A DNA stretch of 64,000 nt from Pontibacter diazotrophicus. Lineage in GTDB: Bacteria; Bacteroidota; Bacteroidia; Cytophagales; Hymenobacteraceae. A model generated the notes under the pieces. It was not told the DNA's origin, did no database searches, and worked only from the letters and a program-made list of their open reading frames with translations. Positions 53,572 to 64,000 of the stretch are shown here, piece by piece; the first letter of the stretch is position 1, and each line of letters begins with the position of its first letter. The DNA lies in contig NZ_QRGR01000003.1 of the NCBI RefSeq assembly GCF_003367245.1, forward strand, positions 186,001-250,000, read 5' to 3'. The position numbers were made by a program, and so were the translations under genes.

Positions 53572-54179
53572 TGGTGTTGGTTATCCGACAATTTACTATA
53601 AAATTTTCACAAGCCCTAACGCCTGGTTTTATGGAAACACCTGGGTTGTGCTGCATGATATGTCCACCCAACTTTACTTCCTGCTTCCCCGTTTAGCGCA
53701 AGGAGGCAAGTTGTTTTTTGTTCAGGAGGCAATAAGTATGATTGCTGTTGGTGTTTTCCTGTGGAAGTGCCTGAAGCTTCAAGTTTAAACTCTTTCCAGT
53801 ATTATAGTAAGATTCAATGGCTTCAGATCAGCCGCAAGACTGCGAAAAGAGGTAAACAACCAGTCACGGCAAATACATAGATATGTAACTGTCCAGAACA
53901 TGCTTTATTGTCCTTTATTTTATTGAGCTAGCTCCTTTGCACACTTATTACAGCTCGCTATGGCATATATTAATAGAAGAGATATAGAAGGACGAGTTGC
54001 ATATTGACGAAGAAAAAATAAAGACAACCAACAATCCGTCAATCAACAGAGATAGCGTTAAAACACTTATTATTTTATCAAAAAGGCAATCTTGTTATAG
54101 CCATTTTGACAAAAGCTTCATTATATTGCGAGAATCACAAAATTTATCAACAAAATCAGCATTAAAAAGAAAAATATAC
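53572..54179. other. Divergent intergenic region (hflK / ppc)
   Basis: About 610 bases. The last 180 are open in the ppc frame from a TTG at 53997, but that stretch is AT-rich and unlike any PEPC N-terminus, so it is read as leader. A 76-codon rightward frame at 53558-53788 overlaps the hflK start antisense and is not supported. Both promoters should lie here. Confidence 0.45.
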
Positions 54180-56756
54180 ATGAATGGTTCTGCCAACAGC
54201 ATATTACAGGTTTACAACAAGCAAGTAGGTCTCCGATTTCAGTTGTACAATAGTTTATTCACCGCCCTTCCTTTTCACAGAATGGAAAGAACCGGCGTGT
54301 TGCTGACTATCTTCTTGCTGCATTGTGAAGAAGGCTTTAGCAAGGAGCAAAGCCCGGTTGAAATCATTGACTCTTTCTTTAAGCAGCATACGTCGTACAA
54401 AGAAGACAAAGAAATGCTGGACCTGCTGTTTCGTTTTGTGCAGTACACAGAGCGTCAGGTCGTATTGTTTGATGCGCTGGAGGATGCCGCTTACCGCGAC
54501 ATTCATGATATGCATGGCCCGGGTACGCTAAAGCAGCTACAGTCGGAAGTGCAGCAAAAGCAAAACCAGGCCCAACTAAAAGAGAAACTGGAAGACTTCT
54601 CTGTTCGTTTAGTCTTAACGGCCCACCCCACGCAGTTTTACCCAAGCGAGGTACTCGGTATCATCAACGACTTGTCTAAAGCGATGGTGAACGACAACAC
54701 CTCCCAGATAAACAGCTACCTGCGGCAACTAGGCAAAACGCCTTTCTTCAGGAATGAGAAACCCACGCCCTACGACGAGGCCGTAAACCTAATCTGGTAC
54801 CTGGAGAATGTTTTTTACACGGCAGCCGGGCATATCCTGACTTATCTGAAGAATCAATTTCCGGACGAAGTAAGCAAAAAGAATCCTATCGTTCGGTTCG
54901 GCTTCTGGCCCGGAGGCGACAGAGACGGAAACCCCTTTGTGAATGCAGGCATCACTTTAAGAGTAGCAGAAGCTTTGCGGGGCGCCGCCATGAAGTCTTA
55001 CTACCTGGATGTGCGCCGGCTAAAGCGGCGGCTAACTTTCAAAAATGTGTCTAATGTGGTACTGGCACTGGAGCAGAAGCTTTACAACAACCTGTTCGTA
55101 CCGAACCATGAGTTGGATATTTCGAGCGAAGAAATCATGCAGACACTGCAGCAGATTCGCACCACACTCATAGAGGAGCATAACAGCCTGTTCCTGGATA
55201 TGGTCGACAACCTGTTGCGTAAAGTGGAATTGTTCGGGCTTCATTTCGCCACTCTTGATATCCGGCAAGACAGTTCTGTGCACGTGGAGCTTCTGCAAAC
55301 AATAGCAGAGACAACCGATATGCTGCCTTCTGATTATTCAGACCTGCCAGCGGAGCAACAAATGACCAGTCTGCTACAGGCAAAAGGCACACTGGATCCA
55401 TCTGTTCTGGAGAGTGAATTGCACCGGGACGTACTGGAAAGTATGGCCGCCATCAAAACAATTCAGGAAACAAACGGCGAACATGGCTGCCACCGCTACA
55501 TTATCAGCCACAGCACCAGCGCTCTGGACGTGATGCACGTCTTTGGCCTGTTCCAGCTGAGCGGTTGGAAGCAGGAAGCGCTTAGCGTAGACATTGTACC
55601 GCTGTTCGAAACAATTGATGACCTGCGAAACGCTGGCGACGTAATGGCTGCTTTATATCAGAATGAGGTATACCGCCAGCACTTGCAGCGCCGCGATAAC
55701 GTGCAGACTATTATGCTGGGCTTCTCGGATGGCACCAAAGACGGAGGCTATCTGATGGCTAATTGGGGCATTTACAAAGCCAAAGAAGAGCTAAGTGCCA
55801 TCTCCAAGGAGCACGGCGTGCAGGTGGTGTTCTTCGACGGCAGAGGAGGACCTCCGGCAAGAGGCGGCGGACGCACGCACCAGTTCTATGCTTCTATGGG
55901 GCCAAACATTTCTAATAAGGAAATCCAGCTGACGATACAGGGGCAAACAATCAGCTCTAACTTCGGAACAGTGGATGCAGCACAGTTCAACATTGAACAG
56001 CTGATGCATGCCGGTATTCACAGCGCCCTCTTCGCCTCCAAGGACACCACACTGACCCCGGCCGAGGAAGAGTTGCTCCTGAACCTGTCCAGGGAAAGTT
56101 TTGAGAAGTATAACACGCTCAAGAATCATTCTAACTTCCTGGAGTATATGCTGTACGTGAGCCCGCTACGCTATTACGGGGAAGCGAACATAGGCAGCAG
56201 GCCTTCGAAGCGCAAACCAGGCAAACTTAACCTCGACGATCTGCGTGCTGTACCGTATGTGGGCTCCTGGAGCCAGTTAAAGCAGAACCTACCAGGCTAC
56301 TATGGTGTCGGCACGGCACTTCAGAGAATGGAGGAAGCCGGCAAATGGGAAGACATTGCCCAATTATACAAGCGTTCCCTGTTCTTTAAAACGCTGATGG
56401 ACAACTGTGAAATGGCGATGACTAAATGCTTCTTTCCGCTCACTGCCTTCCTGGCCAGCCACCCGAACTATGGCGAGTTGTGGAACATGATTCATGATGA
56501 GTTCCAACTGACGAGAAGCTATATCCTGCGCCTGACGGGAGCTGCTGAACTGATGGAAGATAAGCCGGTTAACCTGCAGTCTATACAAATGCGCCAGCGA
56601 ATAGAACTGCCTTTGCTAACCATACAGCAGTATGCGCTGACAAAAATACGGGAGATGGAAGAGCAGGGCCAGCAGACAGAGTATAAGCCCAAGTATGAGA
56701 AACTGGTGGTGCGCTGCTCCTTCGGTATCATCAACGCAGAACGAAATTCAGCTTAA
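54180..56756 (+). CDS. ppc: Phosphoenolpyruvate carboxylase
   Basis: An 858-residue carboxylase forming oxaloacetate from PEP and bicarbonate, the anaplerotic feed to the TCA cycle. The catalytic His is in LTAHPTQFYP near residue 142, the substrate region in GFWPGGDRDGNPFV near residue 240, and the mobile glycine loop FDGRGGPPARGGGRTH near residue 553. The C-terminus ends with the conserved NAERNSA-type tail (normally -NTG). I used the ATG at 54180-54182 (MNGSANSILQVYNKQVGLRF) because homologous sequence begins just after it. A terminator hairpin follows. It has no operon partner. Confidence 0.94.
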   Translation: MNGSANSILQVYNKQVGLRFQLYNSLFTALPFHRMERTGVLLTIFLLHCEEGFSKEQSPVEIIDSFFKQHTSYKEDKEMLDLLFRFVQYTERQVVLFDALEDAAYRDIHDMHGPGTLKQLQSEVQQKQNQAQLKEKLEDFSVRLVLTAHPTQFYPSEVLGIINDLSKAMVNDNTSQINSYLRQLGKTPFFRNEKPTPYDEAVNLIWYLENVFYTAAGHILTYLKNQFPDEVSKKNPIVRFGFWPGGDRDGNPFVNAGITLRVAEALRGAAMKSYYLDVRRLKRRLTFKNVSNVVLALEQKLYNNLFVPNHELDISSEEIMQTLQQIRTTLIEEHNSLFLDMVDNLLRKVELFGLHFATLDIRQDSSVHVELLQTIAETTDMLPSDYSDLPAEQQMTSLLQAKGTLDPSVLESELHRDVLESMAAIKTIQETNGEHGCHRYIISHSTSALDVMHVFGLFQLSGWKQEALSVDIVPLFETIDDLRNAGDVMAALYQNEVYRQHLQRRDNVQTIMLGFSDGTKDGGYLMANWGIYKAKEELSAISKEHGVQVVFFDGRGGPPARGGGRTHQFYASMGPNISNKEIQLTIQGQTISSNFGTVDAAQFNIEQLMHAGIHSALFASKDTTLTPAEEELLLNLSRESFEKYNTLKNHSNFLEYMLYVSPLRYYGEANIGSRPSKRKPGKLNLDDLRAVPYVGSWSQLKQNLPGYYGVGTALQRMEEAGKWEDIAQLYKRSLFFKTLMDNCEMAMTKCFFPLTAFLASHPNYGELWNMIHDEFQLTRSYILRLTGAAELMEDKPVNLQSIQMRQRIELPLLTIQQYALTKIREMEEQGQQTEYKPKYEKLVVRCSFGIINAERNSA

Positions 56757-56910: not shown

Positions 56911-57780
56911 ATGAACTCCTCTATAAACTTATCAGCCGACTGGAGCCAAATAGAAGTCTGTGAGGTACAGGAGAAGTCGAAGCTGGTGACCTGCAAAAAT
57001 GTGCAGCCACTTAAGATTCTCAATCCTGCCTCCTATAACAAAAGCTGCCATGTGGTGCTGTCAAATTTTGGTGGCGGCATGGTATCCGGGGATCAGATTA
57101 ACCTGCATGTAACCTGTGGCACCCAAACGAACCTATTTCTCAGTTCACAGTCTAATTCCAAAATTTTTAAGTCTGTAGATGGTGCAGCAGCCGAACAAAC
57201 CACCCAGGGTACGCTGGAAGAAAATGCCCTAGCCGTTGTTTTTCCTGATCCGGTGGTGTTGCAGGAAGGCAGTATATACAGGCAGGTGCAGCACTGGGAG
57301 GTACAGCCAAAATCCCTTCTGCTGGTGATCGACTGGTTCCATTCCGGCAGAATGGATATGGGCGAACGCTATGCTTTCAATTCTTTTTTCTCGGAACTGA
57401 AAGTGACCGCAAAAGGCAAAACAGTTCTCCTCGACCGCTTCTCTTTTAGCCCCGACCAGCACATCGCTACCTCCCCTGCCAACTTCGGACAGTACCAGAC
57501 CATGTTCTCCGCTTATCTAATCGGCAGCCCGGGTGAGGAAAAGTTTGAGCATTTAAGTCAAAAGCTGCTGCAACTCCGGATGCAGGAAAGTGCTAACCTG
57601 AACTTTAACATGACTGCCAAAGATTTTGTGCTTTCTGTCGTGAAAGCACGAGAAGGCGTATACATCCTGCGGTGTATGGCAAAGAGCAGGATGGACCTGC
57701 AACCACTTTGCGATGCCATTCTCAAGGCACTTTCTTCTGAATTGTTCCTGGGCTATAATCCAGTGAAGCGGAAGTATTAG
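56911..57780 (+). CDS. ureD: Urease accessory protein UreD
   Basis: A 289-residue urease chaperone (UreD/UreH family) that binds apo-urease with UreF and UreG and helps load nickel. Recognisable blocks are NFGGGMVSGDQINLHVTCG near residue 50 (the family signature), SQSNSKIF and the later DWFHSGRMDMGERYAFNSF. It is on the plus strand and convergent with ureG, so unlike most urease loci it is not in the structural operon. It needs separate expression, giving a possible regulatory split. An extended non-operon position but full family length. Confidence 0.92.
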   Translation: MNSSINLSADWSQIEVCEVQEKSKLVTCKNVQPLKILNPASYNKSCHVVLSNFGGGMVSGDQINLHVTCGTQTNLFLSSQSNSKIFKSVDGAAAEQTTQGTLEENALAVVFPDPVVLQEGSIYRQVQHWEVQPKSLLLVIDWFHSGRMDMGERYAFNSFFSELKVTAKGKTVLLDRFSFSPDQHIATSPANFGQYQTMFSAYLIGSPGEEKFEHLSQKLLQLRMQESANLNFNMTAKDFVLSVVKAREGVYILRCMAKSRMDLQPLCDAILKALSSELFLGYNPVKRKY

Positions 57781-57863
57781 GAGTGAGCAACACGGCTAAA
57801 AACCAGGTTCAAGATAGAAACTGATTCCGGTTCTTTGGTATTGCTGAAAATAGGTCCAGCTCC

Positions 57864-58616
57864 TTACCTCCTATCCTCCCGCACTGACAGAAGTGCTTTT
57901 TCTTTGGCTTTATGTATATGATCTATGATTTCATCCAAGCCGTCTCCATGCAATGCGCGGGCAAAAACGAAAGGCCCTTCCCCGCGCATTTTTCTGGAGT
58001 CACGATCCATTACGTCTAAATCTGCCCGAACCAACTGTGCCAGATCGGTTTTGTTAATGACCAGCAAGTCGGATTGGGTAATGCCGGGTCCACCTTTACG
58101 TGGTATTTTATCGCCACCAGATACATCAATGACATAAATGGAATAGTCTACCAACTCTCGGCTGAAATGAGCTGCCAGGTTATCGCCGCCGCTCTCCACA
58201 AACAGGAAATCAATTTTATAGCTGAATTTAGCCATCAGTCCCTCCAGTGCATCCATGTTCAGCGAAATGTCTTCGCGTATGGCAGCATGGGGGCAGCCGC
58301 CTGTCTCCACCCCTACTATCCTGTCTTCGCTCAAAGCGCTGTTCCGGATCAGAAACTCCGCGTCTTCCCGGGTAAAAATGTCGTTGGTTACCACCCCTAG
58401 TTCATAGGTGTTCCGGAGCCTTTCGCAAAGCGCTTTAAGCAAGGCTGTTTTACCTGTACCCACCGGGCCGCCAATCCCCACGGTAAAAGCCCTCTTCCTG
58501 AAATTCCGGTAAGAAGGCAGCTTTCGTGTATCCCGCAGGTCATATTCCCCCGGTGACTCATAAAACTCGTGTGTGTGCCCATGCAGCAGGAGGGCTAACT
58601 TATCGACGAAGGCCAT
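57864..58616 (-). CDS. ureG: Urease accessory GTPase UreG with His-containing N-terminus
   Basis: A 250-residue SIMIBI GTPase that drives nickel transfer into urease. The P-loop is [11 protein letters not shown] at residues 47-57. The nickel-binding CPH is Cys108-His110, within [13 protein letters not shown], and the base-specificity motif is NKTD. About 40 residues precede the P-loop, longer than the E. coli-type minimum, and contain HGHTHE (residues 12-17), a short His cluster that could hold nickel. It is last in the operon, 68 bases after ureF. No ureE is present to supply nickel, so this extension may matter. Confidence 0.93.
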
Positions 58617-58684
58617 TATTTTAATTGTTTAATTTTTACTTCCTGTTGATGATGATAAAAAGGTTATAATGTAGTTGTAGCCGC

Positions 58685-59362
58685 TTAATTCTGGAACAAC
58701 TTAGAATAGATATCGTCGTGGAAGACCTGCGAAGTATCTAGCATAAAAGCAGACCTTGTGGCTTGGGTATACGTCATATTTCCATAACTTTCTATCAGGT
58801 TTTCGAAAACGGTATAGAACGCGTGCTGCAATTTGTGGCCTTCCATGGGTCCGATAAACCCCAACCGAATGGCTGCACTCACCTGGTCCCGCAGGGCCAT
58901 GTGCAGGTACATCGTTTGCACATCTCCTAAGGTAAAGTCAACCCGTTTCAGGCATAGCACATACACCAGCACAAAATGCAGCGGAAGTTCCTGCTCCGCA
59001 AACCACTCCCTAATTTCCTGCATGCCCGCCTCAGGGTAAAATAACTCCAGCAGCTTCAGCCAGTTTTTCCCCTGCACCACACTCGCCTTATGGATAACAG
59101 GCACCAGCATCATCGCGTCATATTCCTCCGCTATTTTATGAAGCTCCTCCTGCAGTTCCGGCTCCTGTACCTGAAAGCAGGAATTCATAAATGGAAACTC
59201 CATGCTCACCACCTGCTGCAGGTAGGCATACAGGTAGTTGCGCAGCTCAAACTGGTTTTGAATCAACCCAAACGTAATGCTGCTCTCTAAACCATAGGAA
59301 TAGGCAAAAGAACCTGTAGGAATGGAAGAGTCTACTAAATGCAGCAAACGGGCGAACTTCAT
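58685..59362 (-). CDS. ureF: Urease accessory protein UreF
   Basis: A 225-residue all-helical chaperone that joins UreD and UreG on apo-urease. The N-terminal LLHLVDSSIPTGSFAYSYGLE (signature SSIPTGSFAYSYGLE near residue 12) and the later FALY-like GFIGPMEGHKLQH are family features. It lies 58 bases after ureC and 68 before ureG, on the same strand. No anomaly seen. Confidence 0.92.
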   Translation of the reverse strand: MKFARLLHLVDSSIPTGSFAYSYGLESSITFGLIQNQFELRNYLYAYLQQVVSMEFPFMNSCFQVQEPELQEELHKIAEEYDAMMLVPVIHKASVVQGKNWLKLLELFYPEAGMQEIREWFAEQELPLHFVLVYVLCLKRVDFTLGDVQTMYLHMALRDQVSAAIRLGFIGPMEGHKLQHAFYTVFENLIESYGNMTYTQATRSAFMLDTSQVFHDDIYSKLFQN

Positions 59363-59420
59363 TATTTAAATGATAAAAGCTAATTGATAGTAGACTCAAA
59401 ACTGTGTTGTCCCCCTGCCC

Positions 59421-61142
59421 TTAAAACAAATTATACAGCTGCGCCAGGGGCAGTTTAGTGGCCGGTTCGCAGGTCAGGTGCACCCCATCCACCGTTACTT
59501 TATAAGTCTCCGGGTCTACTTCTATGTTTGGTAGGTAATCGTTCAGCGCCATATCCTTTTTAGAGACACTCCGGCAGTTCTTCACCGCTACCACCTCTTT
59601 CTGCAGACCATACTTTTCCTGCACATGCGCCACCGATGCCTGCGATACAAAGACCATAGACGTTTTCCCGATGGCTGAACCAAACGAACCGAACATCGGC
59701 CTGGAGTAATATGGCTGCGGCGTAGGAATAGACGCATTGGCATCGCCCATCTGCGACTGCACAATAACACCGCCTTTGATAATCATCTCAGGCCGTGAGC
59801 CGAAGAAGGCAGGCTTCCAGAGCACCAGATCCGCCAGCTTGCCCAGTTCCACAGAACCAATCTCTTCTGAGAAGCCATGCGCCCGCGCCGGGTTAATGGT
59901 ATACTTGGCGATGTACCGCTTCACTCTAAAATTATCCGCTTTGCTTTCTGAAGCGGCATCCTCTGGCAGCAGGTCGCGCTGCTCCTTCATTTTATGGGCT
60001 GTTTGCCAGGTGCGCGTCACCACCTCCCCTACCCGGCCCATGGCCTGCGAGTCGGAGGCGATAATAGACAAAGCGCCCATGTCGTGCAGGATGTCTTCGG
60101 CAGCGATTGTCTCTCCCCGGATACGGCTTTCAGCAAAAGCCACATCCTCTGGTATGTTCTTGTCGAGGTGATGGCAAACCATCAGCATGTCGAGGTGCTC
60201 GTCGATGGTGTTCACTGTGAATGGTCGCGTCGGGTTGGTGGAAGACGGAATAACGTTGGGCTCTCCGCAAATCTTGATGATATCCGGTGCGTGGCCTCCA
60301 CCAGCTCCCTCGGTATGGTAGGCGTGAATGGTCCTGCCCTTGAAGGCATTCGTGGAGGTTTCCACAAAGCCGCTTTCATTCAGCGTGTCAGTATGGATGC
60401 ACACCTGCACATCGTATTGATCCGCGATGCTGAGGCAGTTGTCGATGGCAGCCGGTGTGGTGCCCCAATCCTCATGCAGTTTAAAACCCAGGGCACCGGC
60501 TTCCACCTGCTCTATCAGCCCCTCCGGTTTAGAGGAATTTCCTTTGCCCAGAAAACCGAAATTGAGCGGGTATGCCTCTGTGGCTTTCAGCATCATTTCA
60601 ATAAAGAAAGCACCCGGTGTGCAGGTGGTAGCATTCGTACCTGCCGCAGGGCCTGTGCCTCCGCCCACCATGGTGGTGACACCCGATGCAAGTGCTTCGT
60701 TTATCTGCTGTGGACATATAAAGTGAATATGGCAGTCTATGGCTCCGGCTGTCAGAATTTGGTTCTCTCCTGCTACCACCTCGGTTGTTACCCCAACCAC
60801 CATATTTGGGGTAATGCCCGGCATAATGTGCGGGTTACCGCCTTTGCCAATGCCCGCAATGCGCCCGTCTTTGATGCCGATGTCCGCTTTATATATACCA
60901 GTATAATCGATGACAAGCGCATTCGTGATAATCATGTCCAGCGCATCGGCCTGTGCTATGCCAGCAGCCTGTCCCATGCCGTCGCGCAGCACCTTACCTC
61001 CCCCAAACTTACACTCTTCCCCATAAACACTGTAGTCTTTTTCTACCTCTACCAGCAGGCTGGTATCGCCCAGGCGAACTTTGTCACCTACAGTAGGGCC
61101 ATACATGTCGGCATAGGCGCGGCGGTCGATTTGAAAGCTCAT
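59421..61142 (-). CDS. ureC: Urease alpha subunit (catalytic)
   Basis: A 573-residue nickel amidohydrolase. All metal and active-site residues are present at the expected spacing: His138 and His140 (CHIHF), carbamylated Lys221 ([10 protein letters not shown]), His223, His250, His276, flap Cys323 with His324 (MVCHHLDKN), and Asp364 (ASDSQAMGR). Each is 4 later than in the Klebsiella enzyme, so a full catalytic subunit is expected. I used the ATG at 61140-61142 ([17 protein letters not shown]). It follows ureAB by 93 bases, where a hairpin lies. Confidence 0.96.
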
Positions 61143-61180
61143 GGGATTGATGGTTTGATTGTTAATTGTTATTCGTTGTG

Positions 61181-61234
61181 CGTTGTTCGTAGATCGTTTT
61201 TTTACATCAAATGACGTTTGATAAACGAACAACG
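61181..61234 (-). repeat. Hairpin-forming repeat between ureAB and ureC
   Basis: Arms of 10 bp (cgttgttcgt at 61181-61190, acgaacaacg at 61225-61234) flank an inner 6-bp hairpin (atcaaa/tttgat, 61206-61222). It starts right after the ureAB stop. No T-run follows the outer hairpin in the leftward direction, so read-through into ureC is expected; it could affect the ureAB:ureC ratio or message stability. Confidence 0.45.
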
Positions 61235-61235
61235 A

Positions 61236-61988
61236 TCAACGAAACAGAAAGCCTGCTGCTTTAGCCCTGGCCAGTGCTGCTGCCTTTTGCTCTTCGGTTA
61301 GCTCACCTCTGATCAAATTGTTGCCTCCGTATACCGTTCGCTCGCCTGCAAGCGCTACCAGCTGCACCCTTTTCCGCTCGCCGGGCTCAAAGCGTACCGC
61401 TGTACCGGCTGGTATATTCAGGCGGTAACCAAAAGCTTTCTCACGGTCGAACTGCAGCGAAGCGTTCGTTTCGAAAAAAGGATAATGTGAACCTACCTGC
61501 ACCGGCCGGTCGCCCATGTTGGTCACATCCATTTCTATAGTTTCGCGCCCCTCGTTTAAGGTGAGCTCTTCCGGGGCCAGCAAATACTCCCCTGGAGTTT
61601 CATTTATGGTATTGTCCGGCGTTGCGGTTTTTTTATCGTAGTTCAGGCCGGAGCCATACAATGCCAGTTCGGGGAGGCCGCGCTCGCGGCAGATGGGATG
61701 GTGCACCGTCACCAGCTTAGTACCATCCGGGAAGGTGCCCTCCACCTGCACTTCGGCTATCATATCAGCTACGCCAGGCATCACATCGCACAAGCCCAAT
61801 ATCTTTTTTCCTTTGTCCATGAGGCTGGCTACGCTTTCGCCGTCCCTTATGAACTCCAGCAATTGCGTGGCAATTAACGCCACCGCTTCGGGATAATTCA
61901 ACAGCAGACCCCGTGCATGCCTTTTCTGGGCCACAAATCCTGCATTATGCAAAACCAGCTTGTCAATGTCTTTAGGCGATAGATGCAT
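61236..61988 (-). CDS. ureA: Fused urease gamma/beta subunit (UreAB)
   Basis: A 250-residue protein that joins the two small urease subunits. Residues 1-100 are the gamma subunit ([17 protein letters not shown]..., [36 protein letters not shown]). Residues about 128-240 are the beta subunit ([56 protein letters not shown] split here). A 25-residue linker connects them with no stop or frameshift. The same order occurs in Helicobacter UreA, where the fused chain forms a larger assembly with the catalytic subunit. It starts the ure structural operon, 172 bases after the transporter gene. Confidence 0.95.
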
Positions 61989-62160
61989 GTAGTTGTGGCA
62001 TTAAAACTTACAAATAGTTGATAAGGTTATTTAGCAGCTAATCAGCAAGAAAAACATTGTTTTCTGATATGGCTGGCTCCCCTGGCATGAACAGATAATC
62101 AATGTTGACATACCGGTTTTACTGGCTTGATTCTAATATCACTATGTATGGCTAATATGG

Positions 62161-62766
62161 CTAAAAATCTAGGTTCTGGTACATCATCCAACTGCCATAG
62201 AAAATACAGATCAGCGACGACACTATAACGATACCAGACCGGAAGGTTCTGTTAATTTTCATGCGTTGGGTAAACGGAATGCTAAACAGACCCGCCGCAA
62301 TGAACATTCCGACGATAGAACCCACGCCAAAGACAAGTAGGTAGGTTATTCCTAACACGATGTCACTGATTTCACTCATCACCAGCAGTACCAAAGCGCC
62401 GCTACCAGCCAGGCCATGCAACAGGCCAACAGTATACGCCACACTGTGCTGGTAGCGGGCAACGCCTGATCCGGCAAAATTGCGCCTGTTCGCTAGCCTG
62501 CTGATGCCCATTATGATTAACATCAGCCCAACAAAGGCTTCAAAATAACCTGAGCTCAGAAAAGTAGCACGACTCAAAAGAATTACCGAACCTACTATAA
62601 CAAGTGTGGTTGTATGGCCAAGGCCCCAGTAGACCCCATCCTTCACCGCCAGTACCAGGCTATCGCGCTTCGTGATGATATTACCAACAGCAATCAGGTG
62701 ATCTGCCTCAAAGGCATGCCCCATGCCCACCAGCGCTGCAAATAATATGGGCAAGAGTGCTTCCAT
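62161..62766 (-). CDS. Nickel/cobalt transporter-like membrane protein (UreH/NicO family)
   Basis: A 201-residue membrane protein with six predicted helices. The first helix carries the family metal motif in HAFEADHLIAVGN (a variant of HAxDADH, residues 17-23) and the second GLGHTTTLVIVGS. These motifs take up Ni2+ or Co2+ in NiCoT/NicO transporters. It lies upstream of ureABCFG on the same strand, so it most likely brings in nickel for urease. Some databases call this family UreH, which is not the UreD-type chaperone. Confidence 0.85.
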   Translation of the reverse strand: MEALLPILFAALVGMGHAFEADHLIAVGNIITKRDSLVLAVKDGVYWGLGHTTTLVIVGSVILLSRATFLSSGYFEAFVGLMLIIMGISRLANRRNFAGSGVARYQHSVAYTVGLLHGLAGSGALVLLVMSEISDIVLGITYLLVFGVGSIVGMFIAAGLFSIPFTQRMKINRTFRSGIVIVSSLICIFYGSWMMYQNLDF

Positions 62767-63267: not shown

Positions 63268-64000
63268 ATGAATCAAGATAATACAATAAATCCAGGATTG
63301 TACAGATCCGAGTTTGAGCATGATGCCTGCGGAGTGGGATGTGTCGTAAACCTGAACGGTAAGAAAGCGCACAGCATCGTGAAAGATGCCCTGACCATGC
63401 TAACCAATATGGAGCACCGTGGTGCTACCGGAAGTGATTCTGAGACAGGTGACGGTGCCGGGATTCTGGTACAGTTACCGCACGAGTTTTTCAAAAAACA
63501 GCTGGACGAGTTTGCTATTCAACTTCCTCAGCCTGGCTTCTATGGTGTGGGGATGATTTTCTTTCCGTCGGTGTACGAGGTAAGGGATAAATGCCGCCAG
63601 ACCATGAACCAGTGCATCCGCAAGATGGGCTTTGATCTGCTAGGCTACCGTTTAGTACCTGTAAACGGACGCGTACCTGGGCATGAGTCCAAAGCGGTAG
63701 AGCCTTATATAGAGCAGGTATTCGTTCAACCAGTTGATCCGAATATAAAGGAGGATGAGCTGGAGCGTAAACTCTTTGTGCTACGCAGCCTGATAACACA
63801 CGAAATCAAGAAAACAGTAAGCGGCGAGAACGGCACCTTCTTTATTGCCAGTCTCTCCTCCCGCACTATTATATATAAAGGGCAGCTCAAGACCGACCAA
63901 GTAGAGAAGTATTACCACGACCTCCGCCATCCTGACTTCAAATCTGCTCTGGCGGTAGTGCACTCCCGTTTCTCCACCAACACCTTCCCTAACTGGAAAC
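63268..64000 (+). CDS. gltB: Glutamate synthase large subunit, N-terminal part
   Basis: The first 244 codons of a glutamate synthase; the rest is beyond the window. From the ATG at 63268-63270 a 20-residue propeptide precedes Cys21 (HDACGVGCVVN), the expected N-terminal nucleophile of the class II glutamine amidotransferase domain. The sequence goes on through MEHRGATGSDSETGDGAGIL, YGVGMIFFP and HSRFSTNTFPNW, the glutamine-site loops. GOGAT turns glutamine and 2-oxoglutarate into two glutamates. The neighbouring urease suggests linked use of urea nitrogen. The product is truncated by the window edge only. Confidence 0.95.
   Translation, partial: MNQDNTINPGLYRSEFEHDACGVGCVVNLNGKKAHSIVKDALTMLTNMEHRGATGSDSETGDGAGILVQLPHEFFKKQLDEFAIQLPQPGFYGVGMIFFPSVYEVRDKCRQTMNQCIRKMGFDLLGYRLVPVNGRVPGHESKAVEPYIEQVFVQPVDPNIKEDELERKLFVLRSLITHEIKKTVSGENGTFFIASLSSRTIIYKGQLKTDQVEKYYHDLRHPDFKSALAVVHSRFSTNTFPNWK

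Follow-up and report, generated by a model that had tools for sequence, protein, structure and literature searches.

The 64,000-nucleotide stretch of Pontibacter diazotrophicus DNA analysed here (NCBI RefSeq assembly GCF_003367245.1, contig NZ_QRGR01000003.1, positions 186,001 to 250,000, forward strand; hereafter the window) contains a urease locus made up of a fused ureAB, ureC, ureF and ureG, together with ureD. We read this set as a UreE-free package in which UreG has assumed the collection of nickel, with a probability of about 0.62. The absence of UreE and the presence of a histidine-bearing N-terminal extension on UreG go together across many genomes. The extension is kept beyond chance, being found with 147 distinct UreG core sequences across phyla. 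In the standard route, as given in PMC10100864, UreE loads UreG at its CPH motif and UreG passes the nickel via UreF and UreD to urease. From the observed sequences, their co-distribution and their ancestry we infer that the UreG arm would bind nickel and hand it over. A flexible, histidine-bearing arm would gather the metal and would itself load the CPH site of its own protein in place of UreE, while a NiCoT-like importer encoded beside the cluster in Hymenobacteraceae would probably supply the nickel.

The features of the locus, in window coordinates, are as follows.

56911-57780, plus strand: ureD (Pfam UreD, 142.8 bits), convergent with ureG
57864-58616, minus strand: ureG, a 250-residue GTPase with an N-terminal extension (TIGR00101, 295.9 bits; cut-off 204.2)
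58287-58295, minus strand: CPH motif, UreG residues 108-110, followed by two alanines; CPHAAIRED is typical of extended UreGs
58485-58616, minus strand: N-terminal extension, UreG residues 1-44; UreGs of the PDB align only from residue 43/45 onwards
58566-58583, minus strand: HGHTHE, UreG residues 12-17, read from the sequence
58685-59362, minus strand: ureF (Pfam UreF, 84.4 bits)
59421-61142, minus strand: ureC, urease alpha subunit, 573 residues (TIGR01792, 963 bits)
61236-61988, minus strand: ureAB, fused gamma and beta subunits, 250 residues (NF009671, 333.1 bits; cut-off 243)
62161-62766, minus strand: NiCoT-like membrane protein, 201 residues, a lineage-specific neighbour (Pfam NicO, 19.6 bits; cut-off 27.7)

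The minus strand thus reads NiCoT-like gene, fused ureAB, ureC, ureF, ureG, and 83 bases separate the end of ureG from that of ureD on the plus strand. The start of ureC is the ATG at 61142 (MSFQID); the TTG-started open reading frame listed to 61232 is too long. The original prediction, made from the DNA letters and translated reading frames, had described UreAB as a single chain, UreD as convergent with UreG and outside the operon, a histidine cluster ahead of the UreG P-loop, and no ureE within the 5.9-kb locus. All four descriptions stand: UreAB matches the NCBIfam gamma/beta fusion model, the coordinates and strands place ureD outside the operon, HGHTHE precedes the P-loop at residues 49-57, and the order ureC-ureF-ureG leaves no room at the usual position of ureE.

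UreE and the two types of UreG

The source genome (6.4 Mb in 88 contigs, completeness 100) was searched as a whole for a ureE elsewhere, and none was found over the cut-off with either Pfam family: the best score was 11.2 bits for UreE_N (cut-off 26.9) and 16.1 bits for UreE_C (cut-off 23). The frame with the best sub-cut-off UreE_C score (L003) was rejected as a UreE; it reads as a membrane permease with an ABC permease-like start. A home-made UreE profile run against candidates from this genome gave nothing convincing, the best being 13.3 bits over 23 profile positions. The genome therefore lacks ureE, as do the UreE-less systems with a histidine-bearing UreG described by Haas et al. (2009; PMC2770081). 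It holds a single UreG match at E<=1e-20.

For the wider comparison, UreE was sought in the stretch of sequence examined around each of 211 distinct UreG cores, with a profile trained on 23 UreEs from this analysis, some of them diverged. Identical cores were merged, and cores with fewer than 150 residues or without a readable P-loop frame were dropped, the latter removing L034 of genome G060 and one frame of L274. UreE was found near none of the 147 extended cores and near 59 of the 64 short ones (Fisher's exact p = 6e-47, a value that overstates the evidence because the rows are related).

Searches of whole genomes gave a similar picture. In the order of the source genome, 30 of 241 genomes contain UreG, which is extended in 27, short in two (G078 and G177) and interrupted in G060. 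UreE_N exceeds its cut-off in G078 and G177 only, and in none of the other 28. The interrupted ureG of G060 (L034, Hymenobacter family) has one stop inside the match. In the phylum sample UreG is present in 13 of 395 genomes; the eight new ones are all short, and UreE accompanies all eight. Among 49 genomes reached via extended-UreG loci, one has a UreE over the cut-off, Pontibacter qinzhouensis (G634, locus L042); the two sets overlap at least in G185 and L040, apparently the same genome.

UreG occurs in 45 of 387 Verrucomicrobiota/Kiritimatiellota genomes and in 87 of 195 Myxococcota genomes. UreE_N was over the cut-off in seven of 80 UreG genomes from these phyla, and all seven have a short UreG. 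A further 52 of the 87 Myxococcota UreG genomes, in most of which only the 96 best candidates were scored, gave no UreE_N match at E<=0.001; N-termini were read for only some Myxococcota UreGs. Seven more Verrucomicrobiota genomes encode a sub-cut-off UreE beside a short UreG, so Pfam alone can miss UreE. A sub-cut-off UreE_N match in G046 (22.1 bits) was rejected as a UreE, since its frame reads as YqgE-like, and is presumably a YqgE-type protein.

Such low-scoring UreEs, in seven of the 80 genomes, lend some credit to the idea that the extended-UreG genomes encode a UreE too diverged for the profiles. We consider this very improbable: the profile that includes diverged UreEs recovered 59 of 64 at short loci and none of 147 at extended ones, and there is no gene at the usual ureE position in the ureC-ureF-ureG order.

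Two genomes serve as internal controls. G634 carries the extended package and, on a second contig (L141, G634:C11, 567-16168), a ureA-B-C-E-F-G-D cluster with a short UreG of 208 residues. In G1200, a member of Myxococcota, the extended UreG and the short one are on separate contigs, and UreE adjoins the short one. UreE thus tracks the short UreG and not the genome. Beyond the L141 cluster lie frames resembling the GTPase HypB and a second UreE, and genes that look like those of ABC transporters.

A single lineage of extended UreG

A tree built from the GTPase core alone, with the extension excluded, places 30 extended UreGs on one side of a branch and 36 short ones on the other (support 100/100, stem of 0.83 changes per column). 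When five more outside rows are added and two long branches removed, the split retains a support of 97 by the Shimodaira-Hasegawa-like approximate likelihood ratio test (SH-aLRT). The window UreG belongs to the extended clade on its core domain, and is a UreG by TIGR00101, with the P-loop GGPVGTGKT and CPH present. The clade holds Cytophagales, Myxococcota, and Kiritimatiellota and Verrucomicrobiota at two or more positions, as well as one contig (3.4 kb) of a Spirochaetales metagenome-assembled genome whose binning is uncertain.

The extended UreG is coupled to the fusion of UreAB, which is found in 79 of 86 extended loci (79 of 80 scorable, six being unscorable and one having the two parts in different frames) and in one of nine scorable short-type loci (Deinococcus). 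Convergent ureD is likewise specific to this lineage, with 64 of 80 named loci having the gene directly after ureG on the other strand. Its place varies: it is ahead of ureA in Myxococcota, behind ureG and in the same direction in four Verrucomicrobiota, and more than 10 kb from the cluster in one Hymenobacter (L111). A true lack of ureD at some loci was rejected, the gene being found elsewhere in all nine genomes searched. The package is also seen on plasmids of Hymenobacter radiodurans (L288) and Persicobacter (L330), and plasmid carriage may help to explain its spread.

The N-terminal extension

4hi0 and 5xkt, the only UreGs in the PDB, align to the window UreG only from residues 45 and 43, respectively, so the extension is real extra sequence. 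It comprises about 40 residues: HGHTHE, then ESPGEYDLR, then a stretch running into the P-loop, with 31 residues between E17 of HGHTHE and the P-loop. HGHTHE, with three histidines, is a modest example of the His-rich terminal stretch of Haas et al. (PMC2770081). Across extended UreGs the consensus is HxH, followed by PG-x-F/Y-x-x-R and by an R-x-F-T strap into the GTPase domain. All 144 counted extensions hold at least two histidines, and the number ranges from 2 to 18; an N-terminal HxH is present in 142.

Differences between the two types reach into the core. R[AS]FT[VI]G is found in 144/144 extended and 0/59 short UreGs and CPHAAIRED in 143/144 and 0/59, while CPHT occurs in 58/59 short and 0/144 extended proteins; S[RK]EL is a further difference in the core of extended UreGs. 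The Persicobacter plasmid UreG reads RVFT in the strap. The CPH motif is presumably the nickel site, and the switch from CPHT to CPHA beside it may mark the loss of contact with UreE.

In an AlphaFold model of the UreG monomer the GTPase domain is confident and the CPH loop region has low confidence. The mean predicted local distance difference test (pLDDT) scores for successive blocks of residues 1-40 are 47, 45, 55 and 66; with the extension at such low confidence, the monomer model gives no contact between extension and CPH loop to report. The low scores suggest that the arm is mobile, and the extension is probably flexible.

The N-termini of UreE-less relatives were to be compared according to the original prediction. 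Histidines are retained in the extension, but the exact HGHxHE is not: other Cytophagales have different His patterns in its place, for example RHLDHFDSPGHFHHRE in L021 and LFHQEHYDGPG, which lacks HxH, in L019, while PG, R and R-A-F-T are kept.

Does the extension carry nickel?

Several observations weigh against nickel collection by the extension, or against the breadth of the association. Surrounding sequence is at least 12 kb for 87 of the 147 extended loci and 7-12 kb for 18, leaving 42 with less than 7 kb examined. On the short side, L169 was scored UreE-positive at only 21.9 bits, and L268 (G763, 14.6 kb) has a short UreG with no His stretch and no UreE found; the G763 genome has no UreE at E<=1e-3. 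Because the extension arose once in the tree, its association with UreE absence amounts to about one event and not 147. Within the extension, no single histidine is invariant in a modest alignment of 36 extended UreGs, where the invariant residues are P22, G23, R28, R42, F44 and T45. Since PG, R and R-x-F-T are under stricter conservation than the histidines, and two of 144 extensions lack HxH, the extension must in part serve another purpose.

This pattern, along with the wide range in histidine number and the changes in the core (CPHAA, S[RK]EL), would suit an extension that has a structural or docking role, towards UreF/UreD or in the UreG dimer, instead of carrying nickel; UreE would then be dispensable for some other reason, such as a good nickel supply. 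We regard this as unlikely, given that every one of the 144 extensions has at least two histidines and nearly all have HxH, and that in the Cryptococcus UreG homologue Ure7 the N-terminal histidines are needed for nickel binding and urease activity, according to a commentary (PMC3697809).

The short UreGs without UreE nearby also bear on this point. There are five: L267, L268, L270 and the Streptomyces L287 and L289. L270 (G715) has a His-rich C-terminal DHHHEHEHSNHPHHHSH, which resembles the C-terminal Herpetosiphon case listed by Haas et al. (PMC2770081), and no UreE found nearby. The Streptomyces plasmid proteins L287 and L289, for which 5 kb on each side was searched for UreE, have small N-terminal His patches. 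L267 (G834), which like its relative L268 comes from Verrucomicrobiota, lies at a contig end and has no His stretch and no UreE found. Three of the five thus have His stretches of their own, which argues against a mere docking role and points to repeated substitution. Being independent, the stretches of the Streptomyces proteins and L270 support a functional link beyond shared descent.

Another chaperone, such as HypA/HypB, SlyD or an unrecognised protein, might instead replace UreE, the His stretch being incidental. HypB is the candidate that Haas et al. (PMC2770081) put forward for two organisms with neither UreE nor a His stretch; of the named chaperones, HypA was the one searched for here. 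This explanation is more doubtful than a docking role. HypA is below the cut-off in 28 of the 30 UreG genomes of the order (19.0 bits in the source genome; cut-off 28.9), and just one of the two genomes over it, G221, has an extended UreG; HypA was accordingly rejected as a general missing chaperone. In addition, Haas et al. saw no correlation with slyD, and across phyla the urease-gene orders that were scored revealed no further gene common to the package among those sought (the window urease proteins, the NiCoT-like protein and UreE). Nickel collection by UreG is the reading we retain.

Relationship to plant ureases

Maturation without UreE in plants and fungi is usually explained as UreG having taken over the job of UreE in eukaryotes. 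The best PDB matches of the window UreC are 4g7e (872.8 bits) and 3la4 (868.0 bits), bacterial chains scoring at most 834.9. Both are single-chain ureases of 840 residues, which we take to be those of pigeon pea and jack bean. The best matches of UreAB are likewise single-chain ureases (252.4 vs 225.5 bits).

In a UreC tree of 72 rows the two plant ureases fall inside the extended group, the short side having a support of 99 by SH-aLRT. A more careful tree of 57 rows, with three long branches and 12 near-copies left out, groups extended and plant sequences in one clade (100/99), with the plants in a 17-row set (99/95); an extended clade without the plants is found in 1% of bootstraps, with p = 0.041 by the approximately unbiased test, barely below 0.05. 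The UreA+B tree, built without these three long branches, sets short sequences apart from extended plus plant ones (99 by SH-aLRT) and does not settle whether the plants lie inside or beside the extended group. These trees include few bacteria from beyond the three phyla; within that limit, UreC and UreA/B of the package group with the plant enzymes to the exclusion of the short type, as in a eukaryote-type urease lineage.

Scores against jack bean UreC agree with this grouping, at 728-805 bits for 41 UreCs of the extended package and 593-742 bits for 29 others. Among plasmid UreCs (best 12 of 159 records), two from Hymenobacter and that of Persicobacter come top, 9-39 bits over those of Proteobacteria. 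A provisional plant UreG core sequence nests in the extended clade, and this is a lead only. It is about an even chance that eukaryotes, rather than losing UreE, inherited urease and His-armed UreG jointly from a bacterial lineage already without UreE.

The NiCoT-like transporter

The original prediction called the neighbouring membrane protein a NicO-type transporter. The motif HX4DH, which we take to be the NiCoT signature, is present in it (HAFEADH) and in 61 of 62 neighbouring homologues. Its likeness to NiCoT (NicO) transporters otherwise consists of weak similarity to Pfam and NCBIfam models: it has only 201 residues and is below both curated cut-offs, including the gathering score of PF03824 NicO. 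Judged by its sequence, the protein is a probable nickel importer. Of 80 named loci, 62 have a NiCoT-like gene next to the cluster. These 62 include none of the eight non-Bacteroidota loci, so UreE-free maturation does not in general require the transporter. The original prediction had the UreG extension and the transporter taking over nickel delivery together; the part on the extension is supported by its co-occurrence with UreE absence, and the part on the transporter does not hold in the form given.

Surroundings of the locus

Both ureC and ureG have their closest named relative in Pontibacter pamirensis (97.4% and 98.4%, respectively). As read from translations, the locus is flanked by a phosphoenolpyruvate carboxylase-like gene (53997-56756) and, on the other side, by the beginning of a glutamate synthase-like gene (63268-64000), a neighbourhood of nitrogen and carbon assimilation genes. 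A match to the Rfam family 5_ureB_sRNA (RF02514; 60695-60989, plus strand, 84.3 bits) lies antisense to ureC and was taken as an echo of the conserved urease coding sequence on which the family was probably built.

Comparison with known systems

The idea that UreG substitutes for UreE was published in 2009: in Table 1 of Haas et al. (PMC2770081) a His-bearing UreG is suggested to stand in for UreE, and Cytophaga hutchinsonii with HLDHFDSPGHFHHRELIH, the stretch of L021, is named as an example. Experimental support exists in a fungus (PMC3697809). The window genome shares with these systems the lack of ureE and a His-bearing UreG, and differs by its pattern HGHTHE. That table pools unrelated His stretches, whereas here a homologous extension clade is set apart from the independent ones. 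Cryptococcus Ure7 and Aspergillus UreG (PMC3697809 and PMC10100864) also combine an N-terminal His region containing HXH with the absence of UreE. Compared with the fungal and plant systems, that of the window is bacterial and arranged in an operon, and its urease has two chains where the plant enzyme has one. The Aspergillus paper (PMC10100864) states that bacterial UreGs are not known to have this feature, which is contradicted by the extended bacterial UreGs found here and by the 2009 table (PMC2770081). Canonical ureABCEFGD clusters, such as the second cluster of G634, encode the same enzyme and the same UreD/F/G insertion machinery, but have their own UreE, an unextended UreG and separate ureA and ureB; the UreC of that cluster is 62.6% identical to the window protein.

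New here are the recognition of the extended clade as distinct from unrelated His stretches, the link of extended UreG with UreAB fusion, the two genomes that serve as internal controls and the grouping of the package with plant urease. A literature search, in which subscription titles were poorly covered so that no absence from print is claimed, returned no paper that deals with the package in Bacteroidota or that groups plant urease with it.

Significance

For annotation, a missing ureE in such a cluster is to be expected and is no sign of a broken urease. A bacterial lineage whose UreC and UreA/B group with the plant enzymes offers a simple genetic system for the UreE-free route, and the carriers of both routes, a Pontibacter and a myxobacterium, allow the two to be compared inside one cell. 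If eukaryotes did inherit urease and UreG together, the source of the package would be a lineage now found in Myxococcota, Verrucomicrobiota/Kiritimatiellota and Cytophagales, and the window locus would be a present-day, two-chain relative of the plant enzyme and of its maturation genes.

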